From: Thelonectria olida
Lineage: Eukaryota > Ascomycota > Sordariomycetes > Hypocreales > Nectriaceae
DNA length: 64,000 nt
Assembly (NCBI GenBank): GCA_020736575.1
Contig: JAGPYM010000002.1
Span: 2,418,001 to 2,482,000 of the forward strand
Direction of reading: 5' to 3'
Below, piece by piece: positions 14,172-23,284 of the stretch (its first letter is position 1; each line of letters starts with the position of its first letter). Under the pieces are notes generated by a model that saw only the letters and a program-made list of their open reading frames with translations, ran no database searches and was not told the origin of the DNA. The position numbers and the translations under genes were made by a program.

Positions 14172-16112
14172 GATGACGGCTTGGGAGTTCAAGGCGTTGA
14201 AGAGGAGAAGTTTGAAGCTTTGGTGGTGGGACAAGGTAGAAATGCAGTTACATGGTAAGATATATGTATATATATATATATATAGACCAAGCTAACGGAT
14301 GTTACAAACGAAGGCGGAATTTTTCCCTCGAATAAACTCTGATAATCCCTACCTCACATCTCGTAGCTGCGGCCAAGTCTCACTTCAGCCCCGTCGATAT
14401 GGCCAATCTGGCTGATTCGCCGAGTGACGGACGAAGAGAAGAGGGGAATGGTCATCTTGTCCCCGCTCCTTCGGAGGTGGGTCAGCCGGGGGTCCGGACA
14501 AGACGGAAGAAGGGGTCTCTTAGTACAGTCAGCTGCACTGAGAGTTGGCAGGATCAAGGCGCTTGAGGGATCAGTATGGTGAGAGAGGTTGTGTTGGGAG
14601 ACGTTGGATTATGGCGTATCACTTTGGTTTTGGTTTGGTGAAGTGGGGAGGCTGCTCGTCAAACAGAAAGTTGTTCGATAAGTCCACTATTATCTATAGC
14701 TTGCTCGGTCTTCTCTCGGAGCTCTTCTCGAACTTGATCAGGGAGCTTCACTGACAGCTCATACACATTGACGCAAAGCAGAGCTAGCGGAGGTCTCTCG
14801 GCTTTGCACGTCTGGACATCAGCAGAGTGAGGCCCAAGATGACAGTGTGTGCATGCGTCGATGATGGGTTGAGTAAGATGTTTGTTAAGGTAGAAACAAG
14901 CATCTTGACTATTCGAGTCCACAGGGATCATCACCAGGGATTGTCTCTTGGCGTTTGGGCTATCTATTACAGCGCTGTACGGATAGATTGAAGGCCGAAG
15001 CTGGCGATGGACCTATTCCGTCGTATCAATCAGCCTCCTACCAACAAAACACTATCATCAACGCCACAGTCCGAGGGAGACCCACCTCGTGATAGTGACA
15101 GATGCCATTGAGACATAATAGTTGGGTATGCACGATGTACTTGCCCCTATTGCCCTACTTCTCTAGACTATTACCATTTGTAACGTGCATCGGGAACTCA
15201 GTGTTTGTTACAACCGGTGACGCAGCGGTGTCATCTTGATTCAAGGAGAGTATAGGCCTAGAACATTCAGATATTAACACAGAGACCATATAAGTTAGGA
15301 TCCCATAGCTCGAGGTCAGACGGACAATGTACTTCCTACAAGAGAGCTGAAACGTATCTTGGATATCAAGCAATAGAATTGACCAATGGTGTTTCGCGTT
15401 ATAGTGCTCCTCCAGCGAAGACCTCACCGACATTTCCTAAGATTGCTTCCCTCTCCATGACGGGAAATGATACGACGCTCGATCTCATCAGCCAACAATC
15501 GCGGACGCCAAAGCACCTTCCCTCATTACCCGTAAAATTAATTAAGACCTGAAGCGCTAAGGAGACCGAGCTCCGCCCCCGCCAATCCTGTGCTAGAATC
15601 GCTCCTGACGCGCCTGGTGGCGGCGGCATGGTGGGCAGCCAAGGCAGGTCCGGCCCTGAGTCCACCTTCCACGAACCTCGGTGTAATTCCTCCCCGCCCG
15701 CGCCGACCGTCATTTCCATCATGGGCAAGAGCGAGCCTCCGCCAGGGGGAGGAAAGAAGGTCAAAGACCACCCATCAATTACGGTATCGCGACATCAAAC
15801 GTTTCTTTTTCCTTCGCCCTCCGTCGCAAGTCGCAACACGCCTCACGCTCCTTTAATCTTTGCTTCTTTTTAGCCTTCTTGTCCTTGCTTCTGCAAGTAG
15901 TTATTCGTGCGAATACACACTGCCCTCCTTCATTAGATCCCATCGTCATCATCGCCGTCGCTTCCGCCAAACTTCATTTTGGGCCCACAACTGTCATCTA
16001 GATCAACTCCTCGTTCGCGTTGCGCTTCACTACAGACCTTTTTTTTTTTTTTTTTTTCTTCTCCTTCAACACGCACATATTTGGCTGCGCTCATCAACCA
16101 ACTCACGCCGTC
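14172..16112. other. Intergenic DNA with AT microsatellite and Isc1 leader
   Basis: Contains the upstream region of the ABM-like gene with an AT repeat, about 1.2 kb with no supported gene, and a C/T-rich Isc1 leader from about 15780 with a poly-T run near 16040-16057. Small frames at 14659-14934 and 15155-15433 (minus) and an ATG frame at 15628-15873 (plus, in the Isc1 leader) show no recognisable domain. Confidence 0.45.
14260..14283. repeat. (TA)n microsatellite
   Basis: An alternating TA run of about 24 bases with one interruption near its left end, in the upstream region of the ABM-like gene. Confidence 0.8.
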
Positions 16113-17787
16113 ATGGCTATCGCTACCGGCATCGATCTCGACAACCACCCGTCTCCCACGACCAACACCGCCGTTCCTGACGACGATGACGCCCTACCAA
16201 CCGAGCTCAACCTTCTGACTCTCAATTGCTGGGGCCTCCTTCATATCTCTGCCCTTCGCGCCCCGAGACTCGACGAAATTGGTCGCCAGCTCGCCCTCCT
16301 AGCTCCTGCTCCCGATATCGTCGCTCTCCAGGAGTGCTGGACTCAGGACGATTACAAGGCTATCCGTCACCATACCCGCCAAGTCCTTCCCTATGGAAAA
16401 TTCTACCACAGCGGTGCGTTCGGCGGCGGCCTCGCCATTCTGAGTCGTTGGCCGATTGAGGAGAGCACCATGTTCAAATACCCTCTCAATGGCCGTCCCA
16501 CCGCATTCTGGCGAGGAGACTGGTATGTGGGTAAGGGCATCGCATGTGCCAAGATCCGTTTCGGCTCTCGGAGGAAAGATGTCATTGAGGTCTTCAACAC
16601 TCATGTAAGTGTTCAGAATCTCGCACGTCACACCGACAAAGTTCTAACTTTCCTTACAGACTCACGCCCCGTACGAGAAAGAGCCCAATGACTCTTATAT
16701 ATGTCATCGCACCGCCCAGGCATGGGAAATGTCAAAGCTCCTCCGAGGCGCTGCTGAGCGTGGCCACCTCGTTGTCGCCATGGGTGACTTTAACATGCTT
16801 CCTCTCTCCCTAGCCCACCGTCTCATTACGGCTCACGCTCCTGTTCGTGATGTTTGGCGTGTTCTTCACCCGGATAGCTCGCTCGGTCCCACCCACCATC
16901 CTGCCGAGAAGGCTCGCCGCAGGCCTATACCCACAGCTGACTTCAACCTTCTCGAGAATGGCGCAACCAGCGATTCCGTCTACAACACTTGGCGTTGGAC
17001 CAAGAACCAGCAGAACCTCGTGAAATCTGGCAAGCCTTACGAAGTCTCTCCTGATGCGATTGATCCGCGCGGGAAACGCCTCGATTATATTTTTGCTTCC
17101 ACTGGCGTCGACCCCGAAGCTCCTCCTACAACCCCCGGCTGGGTCATCAAGACCGCCATTGTCGCCCTCACTGAGCGCCATCCCGATCTCCACGTCTCCC
17201 TCTCCGATCACTTTGCTGTCCGCGCAACCCTCACCCGACACACGCCCACGCCGTTGACCCCTCCAGCCCATCCCCGAGCCGAAACCCCTTCCGCCGCCCT
17301 GAAATCCGGTGCCTTTTTGGCGACCGATAGTCCGGCCACCAGCATCCGTTCCATCCCAAGGGCGCTTCCTGCCGATCCAGACGTGCAGCTATATCACAGT
17401 CGCGAGGATGAGGCCCTCCCGATGTCCGTGTACGATGAAATTCTGGCCATGATCCACCAGTACCATGCCCGCGAAGTCCGCCAACGCTATTGGCGCGGCG
17501 TCCACTTCTTTGTGGCCTTGTTTATCACGATCGGTTGTCTGGTCGCGGTTTGGTTCAGCCCAGCCAACTTTGTCTCTTTTATTCTCATGCTCGTCAGCAG
17601 CTTAGGCCTTACTGCTGGCGTCATTGACGGACTTCTCTCTCTACTCTTCTTCTCTTGGGAGATTCGCGGCCTCAAGGAGTTTGAGTGGGAGATTCGTAAC
17701 ACAAAGGCCGTGGCCTCTGGTGACCTTGTAGCCTTGACTGAAAGCAATGCCCCCGGTAGCCCTCCCCGAAGTGCGAGAAGTCAATGA
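16113..17787 (+). CDS. ISC1: Inositol phosphosphingolipid phospholipase C (neutral sphingomyelinase family), Isc1
   Basis: Two exons: 16113-16604 and 16660-17787, giving 539 aa. The Mg2+-dependent enzyme removes the phospho-inositol head from complex sphingolipids to give ceramide, at ER and mitochondrial membranes. The endonuclease/exonuclease/phosphatase fold is clear: LLTLNCWGL (Asn), LQECW (Glu near residue 74), GGGLAILSRWPI, FNTHTHAPYE across the intron, GDFNM (Asp/Asn near 206), RLDYIFAS and the catalytic SDHFAV near 346. Two C-terminal hydrophobic segments, about residues 447-465 and 470-495, are the usual tandem membrane anchor. The region between about 355 and 425 is Pro/Ser/Thr-rich. 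The intron has a consensus TTCTAAC branch point. The gene converges on the PUK1-like kinase. Confidence 0.94.
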
Positions 17788-18057: not shown

Positions 18058-20756
18058 TCACTCGTGCATTCTGACGGCTGTGTAGCCACCGGGCCTCATT
18101 CTGCGCCATGCGTAACCCATAAATGCCGTCTTCTTCCTGATGTCCATGACACCTTCTTTCAGATCCTGGTCTCGCAGCAGAATGTCTCTCGGTCGCTTCC
18201 GCTCCTTCTGGCCATATAGCCTCACAAAATGCTTGAGCATTTCCTTCTCTTCCAACCTCAACCATGAGGTCTCAATCTGACCGTCAATCTTTCGCAGCCT
18301 TGTCGAATCAAACGGTGATTCAATGAGCTTGATGGCATGGTCCTGCACATGCGGTGAGAAGTCGCGCAATACCTCCCGCACATCGTCCGGAGTCAGTACG
18401 CCCCCTGGAGGAGACGACTCAGACCAGTCCTCGATGGTTTCCGACTCATCAAAATAGTGCGAATCGTCGGCACCGTGAATTTGTGGGATAAAAGGGGGCG
18501 TAAGAGTTTGCAGACGATCCCAGGGCACAGTTTTGAACCAACGATGAGCCTTGATGTCTTCTGCATCATCGGGGAAAACATGCCGGCCAATCCTATCTGT
18601 CGACCTCGACGGATCAGGTGAAGGTCGGTCTGTCGCGTGATATCTTCTTGAGCAAAGTCGTTGTTCCTTGTCCTTTATCAAGCGGAATATCAAGTCTTTG
18701 CATTTATCGCTGACCAGCGGCGTCTGGGGAAAAAAGAAACGCCTCTTGTGGTCCTTCGATAATGTAAGCTTCTAACGTGTCCCCATGGGCCTGATTTAAA
18801 ACTCACCACAATGTTTTGTTTCGTCTGCTTGCGCCCATCCTCTGACAGAAACGGCGTGTGTCCATAAAGACACTCGAACAGGATGATGCCAATGCTCTAC
18901 CAATCGCATCTTCCGTCATATCTCCGGCCCAGAATAACTTCAGGGGCCATATATTGACTAGTTCCAACGACCGAGTTGGCTGCAGTGCGATTACCATTCC
19001 GGTTCCTCCAGCTAACAAGCTTATTGAGGTCATCTTCGGCTCCGGATGGCAATTTCCCGTGACGCTCTATACTCTTAACAAGAGATTTGTACCAATCAAA
19101 CTGCGTCAGGATACCGCGGTTGCTTTTTTGATCAGTCTCGTCTCCGTCGACGTTGAGTCTGAGCTTTCGAACGAGCGAGTATCGGTGACAGTTGTAGTAA
19201 GAGGCGTCATGGGACCAGTGGCCGTCGAAGGCGAGTCCAAAATCGGAGATCTTGAGATGGCCCGACGCGGATATAAGAAAGTTGTCTGGCTTGATATCAC
19301 GGTGAATGAAGTTGAGTCGATGAGCCTCTTCGACGGCGAGGATCATCTCAGCTATGTAGAAGCGCGCAATCGACTCGTGAAGGATGTTCTCCCGGATCAA
19401 GAAGCCAAGAAAGTCTCCCCCGGGCATGTATTCCATCACCAAGTAGAGACTATGGGCATCTTGGAAGCTGGCAATCAGTGGAACAACCCTATGGCCGATC
19501 TCGTCAGCAATGACAATAACCCGGATCCTTGTGCATCATGACACTAACCAATCCGACCCATTAGAGCCAACAAGAAAGTCTCTTTCAGCCCTCAGATGGC
19601 CCTCCTGGCAACTTCGTAGCATTGTCGACTTTCGAATTACCTTCATTGCATACACTTGACCCGTGAAGGCATGTCCTGCCACGGGCTTCTCTCGAACAAG
19701 TCGCACCACACCAAAACTCCCCTTTCCCAAGATTTGCAGAGGTTCATAATTGTCGACAGCGGTTCTCCCTTCTTCAGGCGAGAGGTCTTGCGACTTCATC
19801 ACCCGTAATTCTCTTAGGTGCCATGTCTCTTGGTTGTTGAAGGATTCTCGAATGGCTGCTTTCTGCTCTGAGGTCAGGTGAGGGCTGCAGTAAAGCTGCG
19901 TCTCCAGTAACTGCCGCCGGAATGCCCGCGTACAGGGCTTGGCCAGAAGATAACTGAACTTGGTTTCAAAGTAGATCTTGGCCGCAGCAGCTCTTTCGAC
20001 TGTCGCAACTGAAGGCTGCACTAAGGCCGCACGCGATTCATCGATGGTGCCAAGAGCGCCTCCCTCTGGGCTGGAGCGAGTCCACGGAATGCGCCTGCTG
20101 TGCCGGCGACTGACGGTATCCTTAGCGGGAGAAGCAAGTCGGGAATCCGCTGAGGTCTTTGTCGTCGAGTCATCCGCCGTCGTAGACGGTCCCGCACTAC
20201 CAGCGGAAGAGTATGGTGAGTTCGACTCGCTGTGAGCTGACGAGTTGTCACCAGCGAGTGCCTGCACTGAACTCGGAGTCCTCAGAGCCTCGTTTCGAAG
20301 CACGATAGTGGTGCTGGAGGCGAGAGCAGGATGGTTCAGTTGCAAGTTCCTCAGAAGCTCCTCTGGAGATATCCCTTTACCCTTCCGGCTAGGCGACACG
20401 GCTTCATTGTCTTCAGCCAAAAGCGCAGTTTTACCTTTCCATGGCTTAGGAGAGTCTCTTCCCGGCGCCTAGCTGGTTTCCTCGGAGTTGTGAGAACCTG
20501 GCACACGAGTGATCGAGGGCCCTTGCGAGTCCATTTGTTTCTTGCTGCTGTTGCTGCTTCGCCCAATAGCTTTAATGGCGCCTCGGATATCGGACCATAC
20601 CTTGGAGCTGGTTCGGCGGAAGCTGAGTACATGGTTGCCGGCAGAGGCTTCCTGTTGGCCAGTCGGCAGTGACAAGCCAGGCTGGGAGGCAAGTGAATCC
20701 TGGGAAGGCGTCTGTACCAAGCGATGGCTACCCTTGTTTACAGGAGATTCTCCCAT
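18058..20756 (-). CDS. NDR/LATS-type AGC protein kinase resembling PUK1, interrupted by in-frame TAG codons
   Basis: Main exons on the minus strand: 20756-19549 (or two exons, see below), 19488-18807 and 18753-18058, about 861 codons. An N-terminal MOB-binding-like helical region (RAAAAKIYFETKFSYLLAKP) is followed by the catalytic landmarks: GKGSFGVV near residue 343, YAMKVIRK, HRDIKPDN near 462, SDFGL near 485, a long NDR-type insert in the activation segment and MAPEV near 588. Reading then meets TAG at 18897-18899 (codon 600) inside DGRCDW-[TAG]-SIGIILFECLYGHTPF, where relatives have a second Trp. The frame continues cleanly through 262 further codons. A second in-frame TAG (20469-20471, codon 96) must be spliced out, edited or read through. 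Fusarium PUK1 has UAG codons at this same Trp-Trp site, corrected by A-to-I mRNA editing in sexual tissue. I infer that this is its orthologue. Unedited mRNA would give a kinase cut off at subdomain IX. Confidence 0.85.
18897..18899 (-). other. In-frame TAG at the conserved second Trp of the kinase DWW motif (candidate A-to-I editing site)
   Basis: The coding order is GAT TGG TAG AGC ATT GGC, with the A at 18898. Kinases of this family read Asp-Trp-Trp-Ser here, so a single A-to-G (inosine) change gives TGG. The A is preceded by T and followed by G, the favoured fungal editing context. Confidence 0.75.
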
Positions 20757-21616: not shown

Positions 21617-23284
21617 TTACTTGATCTCGAGGACCTTGACATCAAAGATCAACTGGCTGTTGGCGGGGATGCCAGGCATACCGCGGGAGCCATAGGCAAG
21701 GTGCGCGGGGATGGTCAGGCGGCGCTCACCACCAATGGCCATGCCAACGACACCAATGTCCCAGCCTTTGATGACTTGGCCCTTGCCGACCTTGAAGGAG
21801 AAAGGCTTGCCCTTCTTGTTGGCTATCGACAGTGTTAGTAGTCGGTAAGTTTGCGTCGTTTGGCATCGTCACTCACCATCAAAGACCTGGCCGTTCTGGA
21901 GCTTGCCAATGTATCGCACACCGACGCTGTCTCCGTTCTTCACACTACGACCCTTGCCAATGGTTCGGTCGTCAATGGTGACGCCCTGAACAACCTTGAC
22001 ACCAGTGGTGGCCTTGGCCTGCTTGGCCTTCTCGGCGGAACCAGTGGGTCCCTGCTCGAGGTTCTTGGCGAACTGAACCTTCTTCTTACTGTCCTCAGTA
22101 GAAACAGCCTCGCCCTTGTTGTTCTTGAGCTTCTTCTGCTGCTTCTTAGCCTCCTTGGCATCCTCCTTGGAGATGAGGGCGTCGAGGCCCTCGGTGGCAT
22201 CCTCAGCAGTGCGCTTGTTCTTGCCCTTCTTGACGGGAACCAGCTTGGGAGCCTCCTCGTCGGACTCGACCTCGGTGATGCGGGGGTCCTGGACTCCGTC
22301 GAGGTCGTCGCTCTCCTCGTCGCTGTCAGCCTGGCCCAAGGCGTACTCGAGCTCATCGGGAGAGAGGTCGTAGTCTTCCTCATCATCCTCGTCTTCGTCG
22401 TCCTCCTCATCATCATCCATGATGTAGTTACCGGTCAGATAAACGGTGTGGGTACCGGTAACAACGAAGAAAACCTTCTCACCATGGTTGACGGTGATGT
22501 CGAGGGGCTGCTGGTAGTTCTGGAAGCAAGTTAGCGAACGGTGCGAGACCGAAGGCGGTTGGGGCCGTCAAACATACCCTCTCAGTGTCCAGAGTGCAAA
22601 TGACGAAGTTCTCGAGATCAGCACCATCCTCGGAGTCGTCATCCTCATCAGAGTCTTCCTCGTCCTCCTCGTCGGACTCCTCCTCAGTAGCCTTGCCCTT
22701 GCCCTTAGCCTTGGACTTCTTGGGCTTGGCATCCTCCATCTCCTCATCCTCATCGGAGTCAGCCTGAGTAGCCTCGATGAGCTTCTTGATGGCAAGAGCC
22801 TGCTTGTTCTTCTTAGCCTTGACGGGGTCGCTGGGGCCACCGTTGGCCTCCTCCTCGTCATCCTCATCGCTGTCAGATGCGGCCAAGAGAGCCTTCAGGT
22901 ACTCGTCGTCAAGCTCATCGTCCTCGTCGTCCTCGAGACCGGGGAAGGCGCGCTTGACAAGTCGGAGGGTGGAGCGAGGGACAGCGGGGACGTTGCCCTC
23001 ATCATCAGCCTCGGGCGTCTCAGTAGGGTCGACAGCGGCCATGGTGATGCGAAACTGCGGGTTTCACGTTAGCGTTGCGAAACATTGGGTAGAGGCGATC
23101 ATGACAGAGCGCGGATAGAAGCGCAGCGACGGACGGCGCAGGAGGCCATCGCGAGAGACTCGAAAAGGCCATTGAGGGCAGAAATGGTCAAACTCACAGA
23201 AGCGGGAAACTCCATGGCGGCGGGAATGAGAATCTCGCCAGGCGGGACCTCGAGGCCGTAAACAGGACCAGGAACGGCAGACAT
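21617..23284 (-). CDS. FPR4: Nuclear FKBP-type peptidyl-prolyl cis-trans isomerase (Fpr3/Fpr4 type)
   Basis: Four exons: 23284-23198, 23054-22578, 22519-21877 and 21822-21617, giving 470 aa. The N-terminal nucleoplasmin-like fold begins [20 protein letters not shown] and returns after the acidic stretch in [23 protein letters not shown] and [17 protein letters not shown]. Long Asp/Glu/Ser runs and a Lys-rich block follow. The C-terminal 110 residues form the FKBP domain ([58 protein letters not shown]). Such proteins isomerise prolines in histone tails and act as histone chaperones in nucleus and nucleolus. The Tyr, Asp, Phe and Trp of the drug/proline pocket are present. All introns have GT-AG ends and preserve frame. 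Confidence 0.95.

Follow-up and report, generated by a model that had tools for sequence, protein, structure and literature searches.

The kinase PUK1 of Fusarium graminearum and its Neurospora crassa counterpart stk-21 carry premature stop codons that are recoded by A-to-I editing of the mRNA during sexual development. According to the portion of the primary report available to us, the two adjacent Trp codons of the conserved DWW motif are UAGUAG in F. graminearum PUK1 and are edited to UGGUGG in perithecia, those of N. crassa NCU03242/stk-21 are UAGUGG and read UGGUGG after perithecial editing, and those of F. verticillioides PUK1 are UGGUAG, edited in perithecia to UGGUGG (PMC4817773). Both DWW codons are described there as fixed as TGG in Claviceps paspali (Liu et al. 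2016, PMC4817773), and N. tetrasperma is added as edited at the first DWW site in the part of a review that was consulted (PMC11156358). The initial annotation of the locus analysed here had cited a tandem UAG in F. graminearum and similar editing in other Sordariomycetes, and for PUK1/stk-21 these accounts, as far as they were available, report just that (PMC4817773).

The window, a 64,000-nucleotide stretch of the genome of Thelonectria olida (Nectriaceae, Hypocreales, Sordariomycetes), contains a kinase gene on its minus strand. Exon 1 (19549..20756) starts with an ATG at 20756-20754 and holds an N-terminal TAG, exon 2 (18807..19488) encodes the bulk of the kinase domain and holds a TAG in the DWW motif, and exon 3 (18058..18753) encodes the end of the kinase domain and a C-terminal tail and closes with a TGA at 18060-18058. 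The exons are separated by minus-strand introns of 60 nt (19489..19548, GTTAGT...ATAG) and 53 nt (18754..18806, GTGAGT...GAAG), both of which are likely real and are also used in the public model P0001. When these two introns were removed from the window sequence, the gene model comprised 861 codons with stops at codons 96, 600 and 862; there was no frameshift across the 861 codons, and both premature stops were TAG. GC3 was 0.595, 0.563 and 0.590 over three gene segments. The translated kinase frame, judged by eye, includes YAMKVIRK, HRDIKPDN and DFGLAFD, which we take to be the Lys, HRD and DFG motifs that mark a kinase as active. The gene is single-copy in the T. olida genome as examined (52,528,275 bases in 165 contigs), the only further DNA match being 40 bases elsewhere. 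An in-frame insert of 48 nt with GC-AG borders (20498..20545, minus strand) leaves the frame unchanged and may be either a retained in-frame intron or a lineage-specific coding insert. Of 22 hand-picked homologues, 21 aligned better when it was spliced out as a GC-AG intron; a small related ORF, P0122, is 6 codons shorter at this insert and would be left with a 30-nt intron, so that a coding origin is also plausible. The convergent neighbour on the plus strand (16002-17787) appears, from its ORFs and by eye, to encode an endonuclease/exonuclease/phosphatase-like product of the sphingomyelinase type.

The top homologue matches were NDR-like kinases of the same architecture from Nectriaceae, other Hypocreales and other Sordariomycetes, and the nearest solved structures were Cbk1 and STK38. 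Upstream of the kinase lies part of a gene for an FKBP-like protein with a nucleoplasmin-like (NPL) domain (21869..22567, minus strand), a neighbour that occurs in the same order and on the same strand in the fused models P0010 (Stachybotrys) and P0037 (Fusarium longipes). Best-hit family, shared DWW site and upstream FKBP neighbour agree with the proposal of a PUK1-like kinase, and by family, DWW site and neighbourhood the T. olida gene is identified as the predicted PUK1/stk-21 orthologue.

The DWW TAG lies at 18897..18899 of the minus strand (codon 600, or 584 should the 48-nt insert be intronic), with its editable A at 18898, and directly follows the first Trp codon of the motif, which is TGG in T. 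olida (18900..18902, minus strand). The reported order Asp-Trp-TAG-Ser-Ile-Gly was recovered, minus-strand bases 18899-18897 being TAG after TGG, with a preceding Cys. Its placement at a conserved DWW Trp was borne out by yeast Cbk1 (PDB 4lqs), in which the second W of CDWWSLG falls in the column of the T. olida TAG (CDW-TAG-SIG), and the 262 codons said to follow the TAG were counted as 261 sense codons and the terminal TGA. The TAG at 18897-18899 is genuine and takes the place of the second DWW Trp, and an A-to-G-type change of this in-frame UAG to UGG would restore the conserved residue. As a control, the 16 PF00069 matches of the T. olida genome that contain a single TAG were compared; the TAG of the window was the sole mid-exon case, and in all 15 others, which were inspected by eye, the TAG lay at or near an exon-start splice acceptor or was intronic. 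The kinase frame had been described as interrupted by a single TAG; it is indeed open on both sides of that codon, but a second in-frame TAG is present at 20471-20469.

This second premature TAG (20469..20471, minus strand) is codon 96, which becomes codon 80 when the 48-nt insert is counted as intronic. In an alignment of the window, P0001 and 51 other sequences, its column held Trp in 17 of the 51 relatives, a group that included none of the Fusarium or Claviceps rows; the 34 without Trp comprised 12 with Ala and the remainder with some other residue or gapped. When the 88 N-terminal residues were used as a query, the sole candidates were two small ORFs, P0121 and P0122. Both carry Trp at T. 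olida codon 96 and both end ten codons later, immediately before the position at which T. olida has TGG (W106, 20439..20441, minus strand); the sequence upstream of the TAG is conserved with P0121 (66%) and P0122 (64%) over the query. The Trp at codon 96, shared by 17 of the 51 and by P0121 and P0122, the two nearest relatives, is conserved in part only. The lineage seems to keep an N-terminal stop in all three sequences, at one of two Trp codons ten codons from each other. In pairwise scoring against the 22 hand-picked homologues, Trp was the best of the 20 residues at the TAG and 11 of the 22 alignments placed Trp there; these homologues were chosen after the N-terminal alignment had been viewed and are rich in Trp rows, so that 17 of 51 is the less biased figure. 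The public models P0003 (Neonectria punicea) and P0005 (Dactylonectria estremocensis) begin downstream of the N-terminal TAG position, and such late starts could hide N-terminal stops. Judging by titles and abstract openings, no additional N-terminal stop in PUK1 was met in the literature. The initial annotation had one site relying on editing; the TAG at codon 96 was overlooked, and two sites probably do so.

Public models of the kinase were surveyed around the DWW motif using the best 120 of 2,250 full-length homologues examined. An intact DWWS was present in 44 of these 120 models and absent from 76, in which the missing piece was the first W only (12 models), both W (22), W-W-S (3) or a larger segment (39), with left borders that differ between species. 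DWWS was kept in all 25 Leotiomycete rows (class assigned from genus names) and was missing from nearly all of the Hypocreales rows among the 120, the exceptions noticed being Clonostachys P0028 and Geosmithia P0086. The Claviceps rows, from species other than C. paspali, had models without DWW, which is in tension with the TGG codons described by Liu et al. Each loss of DWWS from a public model would, on our reading, mark a stop, and with 76 of the 120 models lacking an intact motif, many of the public models for the PUK1-type kinase are probably wrong at DWW.

ORF ends were examined by using the DWW exon as a query; the best 120 of the 1,352 proteins retrieved, nearly all derived from metagenomes or assemblies, were considered. 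Within these 120, 65 ORFs crossed DWWS, 42 ended after D, 13 ended after D-W and none ended elsewhere, so that 55 stop precisely at the first or the second Trp codon of DWW. The ends were read from proteins, in which the type of stop codon is invisible and contig ends could have cut single rows, and the hit ranking rewards long coverage, so ORFs that end earlier could be under-represented. The ECLYG-type sequence that follows in the spliced protein was missing from 44 of the 65 read-through ORFs, which suggests that the gene callers concerned ignore introns. P0123 (94% identity) and P0125 (90%) end after D-W, at the same codon as T. olida, and P0124 and P0126 end after D. In a quick tree of 121 rows computed with the DWW columns left out, in which 18 of 118 inner branches were well supported, the three DWW states required at least 20 changes and the contrast of stop versus intact at least 9; the well-supported branches alone force 5 changes for a stop at the second Trp, 6 for a stop at the first and 2 for the intact state.

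The most direct alternative is that both TAGs are spliced out as in P0001, with the DWW TAG serving as the acceptor that closes a 120-nt intron. This model of 800 residues was reproduced letter for letter from the window exons plus two extra introns, one of 120 nt (18897..19016, minus strand, GTTAGC...TAG) and one of 63 nt (20435..20497, minus strand, GTTCTC...AAG), and the earlier statement that no splice signals flank the DWW TAG was too strong, given that these predicted introns remove both stops. The donor GTTAGC is akin to that of intron 1, TAG is a legal acceptor, the TAG was an acceptor or intronic in all 15 of the other lone-TAG kinase matches, and the predicted intron 20497-20435 spans the TAG of T. 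olida as well as the codon before which P0121 and P0122 end. The two introns are nevertheless judged spurious because each deletes conserved coding sequence. The 120-nt intron would remove the segment from VGTSQYMAPEV to CDW, APE motif included, which is kept in the 44 homologues with intact DWWS, and the left border of the supposed intron in this region varies from species to species. Gene callers did likewise for F. graminearum PUK1, where the cDNA is unspliced according to the part of the report available (PMC4817773). The 63-nt intron would delete 21 codons that align with relatives; these match homologues better than 500 of 500 shuffles, and retaining them scored higher in 21 of the 22 hand-picked homologues. 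Removal of the TAGs by splicing was rejected on these grounds and is considered quite improbable. Somewhat less remote, though still unlikely, is the possibility that only the DWW stop is edited and that a later start codon or readthrough bypasses the N-terminal TAG. The N-terminal region is weakly conserved in Fusarium, and of the first 62 models of homologues, 8 have a short N-terminus. In the spliced model, however, no further in-frame ATG occurs before codon 304, 16 codons ahead of the kinase domain, so that a later start would forfeit the conserved region ahead of it; the conservation with P0121 and P0122 ahead of the TAG and a base context suited to editing likewise speak against a bypass.

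Decay was assessed from sites whose invariance across the 25 Leotiomycete rows was 95% or more. In the window, 24 of 174 such sites were changed in the kinase domain before the DWW TAG and 24 of 118 after it; the corresponding counts were 22 of 174 and 30 of 118 in Clonostachys P0028, a row with DWW retained in its model, and 19 of 155 and 20 of 118 in Neonectria P0003, and 22 of 118 sites were changed after the DWW site in P0002. Relaxed constraint after the TAG, which had been named beforehand as a refuting observation, was not seen, the 24 of 118 comparing with 30 of 118 in Clonostachys P0028. A decaying pseudogene, or sequencing errors at the TAGs, in a mostly asexual isolate would accommodate two stops, one of them where both nearest relatives have Trp, and TGG to TAG needs a G-to-A change, a common type of transition. 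Against this, 861 codons contain no frameshift and two stops only, both TAG and both at columns with Trp in relatives; constraint is upheld on either side of the DWW stop, the closest relatives stop at DWW too, and a MAT alpha-box stretch is open in the T. olida genome. A relaxed pseudogene was rejected because constraint holds and the frame is intact apart from the two TAGs, and the chance that decay or error explains the stops is regarded as slight. Repeat-induced point mutation (RIP) could in principle have made the stops, TGG to TAG being equivalent, from the codons, to CpA-to-TpA on the opposite strand. The gene is single-copy and its RIP indices are ordinary, with TpA/ApT of 0.54 in the gene vs 0.60 in the window and (CpA+TpG)/(ApC+GpT) of 1.32 vs 1.25; RIP was therefore rejected, and its probability is taken to be negligible.

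The preferred reading, editing of both UAGs, was further examined through RNA sequence context and predicted folding. Editing sites are described, in the text available, as favouring hairpin loops together with U at -1, C/U at -2, G at +2 and A/G at +1, +3 and +4 (PMC9600606). The bases at -1 (U), +1 and +3 of the DWW site are preferred ones, whereas -2, +2 and +4 are occupied by disfavoured bases; the group of sites with only -1, +1 and +3 preferred contains more sites than many other groups in the same partial source (PMC9600606). At the N-terminal site, five of the six flanking bases are preferred. A18898 was predicted to lie in a 6-nt hairpin loop of a stem-loop at 18868..18928 (minus strand, +-30 nt, MFE -18.7 kcal/mol), and it stayed in a 6-nt hairpin loop at every flank tried, from 10 to 50 nt. 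The CDS has 69 further UA adenosines, of which 27 were in hairpin loops and 2 in equally stable ones, and 1.35-3.9% of synonymous recodings matched the DWW site on loop plus stability, so that the structural support is modest. The N-terminal A was in a hairpin loop with flanks of 10, 15, 20 and 21 nt, and this loop was absent from the +-30 nt folds.

Candidate components of the editing machinery were sought in the T. olida genome. Binding of Ame1 to Tad3 is reported to need M500 V501 and D589, and the catalytic Ser at position 531 of F. graminearum Ame1 to be dispensable, S531A being harmless, in the part of the study that was available (PMC11087585). Three DUF726 loci were found, of which L011 (C144, 459493-460020) has M500, V501, D589 and H629 in ungapped numbering from the active-site motif, with Gly at position 531; positions 500-501 of the remaining two loci are AH and SL. 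L011 is accordingly identified as the T. olida Ame1 orthologue. A Tad2-like deaminase gene with HAE and PCVMC motifs was present (L025/L027), and Tad3 was not recognised in the genome by the PF00383 profile. RID-type methylases and SPO22 undergo stop editing in F. graminearum; in T. olida, the matched stretches of RID-type methylases (PF00145) and of SPO22 (PF08631), which cover the genes in part, contained no TAG, and one TAA was seen in a short second SPO22 match. A literature search for Thelonectria together with A-to-I editing returned nothing.

It is highly probable that the T. olida PUK1/stk-21 mRNA carries two premature UAGs that are edited to UGG in perithecia to give the full-length kinase. 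The mRNA of this presumed orthologue of an NDR-like kinase of sexual development would bear one UAG at codon 96 and another at the second DWW Trp, codon 600. During perithecium development, a Tad2-Tad3-Ame1 deaminase would turn the A of each UAG into inosine, and the inosine-bearing codons would be read as UGG (Trp), yielding the full-length protein; in unedited vegetative cells, translation would stop at codon 96, ahead of the kinase domain. For T. olida, we infer editing, its stage and the vegetative/sexual on/off control. A more tentative proposal, to which we give slightly less than even chances, is that in the Thelonectria lineage PUK1 has a double lock, formed by two separate editable stops some 500 codons from each other, each of which shifts over evolutionary time between neighbouring Trp codons, the DWW lock between adjacent codons and the N-terminal lock between codons 96 and 106. 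If this were so, a stop would be kept while its exact codon drifts, and it would be dependence on editing, and not a given site, that persists. The DWW stop would extend a known case of programmed RNA recoding to a new genus, and the added N-terminal TAG means that the kinase probably needs two separate edits. Among the ORFs examined, ends were confined to two adjacent codons yet, on the mostly weakly supported tree, often switched between them, which bears on whether stop editing is a selected developmental switch or tolerated drift; the second stop makes that question testable because the full-length kinase would need both edits.

The T. olida kinase can be compared with several described systems. 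The premature-stop-correction (PSC) genes of filamentous ascomycetes, which number about 70 in F. graminearum and include AMD1, FgAMA1 and CHE1, likewise have an in-CDS UAG changed to UGG to give a full-length protein, and they share with the T. olida kinase the false introns introduced by gene predictors (F. graminearum PUK1, CHE1); they are, however, genes other than PUK1, and CHE1 is edited in hyphae. N. crassa stk-21 has one editable stop at the same codon pair, at the first Trp, whereas that of T. olida is at the second; a published stk-21 deletion in N. crassa provides a phenotype against which T. olida can be compared (PMC7306014). F. graminearum PUK1 (FGRRES_01058), compared by its published description, has tandem TAGs at DWW as against one in T. 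olida. The available portions of the accounts of F. graminearum and F. verticillioides PUK1 do not speak of a separate N-terminal stop, whereas T. olida has one. PUK1 editing was demonstrated by RNA in Fusarium, whereas in T. olida it is deduced from DNA. F. verticillioides FVEG_01191 has TGG-TAG at the DWW pair, the same state as T. olida; since the T. olida UGGUAG equals a state that is edited in F. verticillioides, the editing reading of the DWW TAG is well supported.
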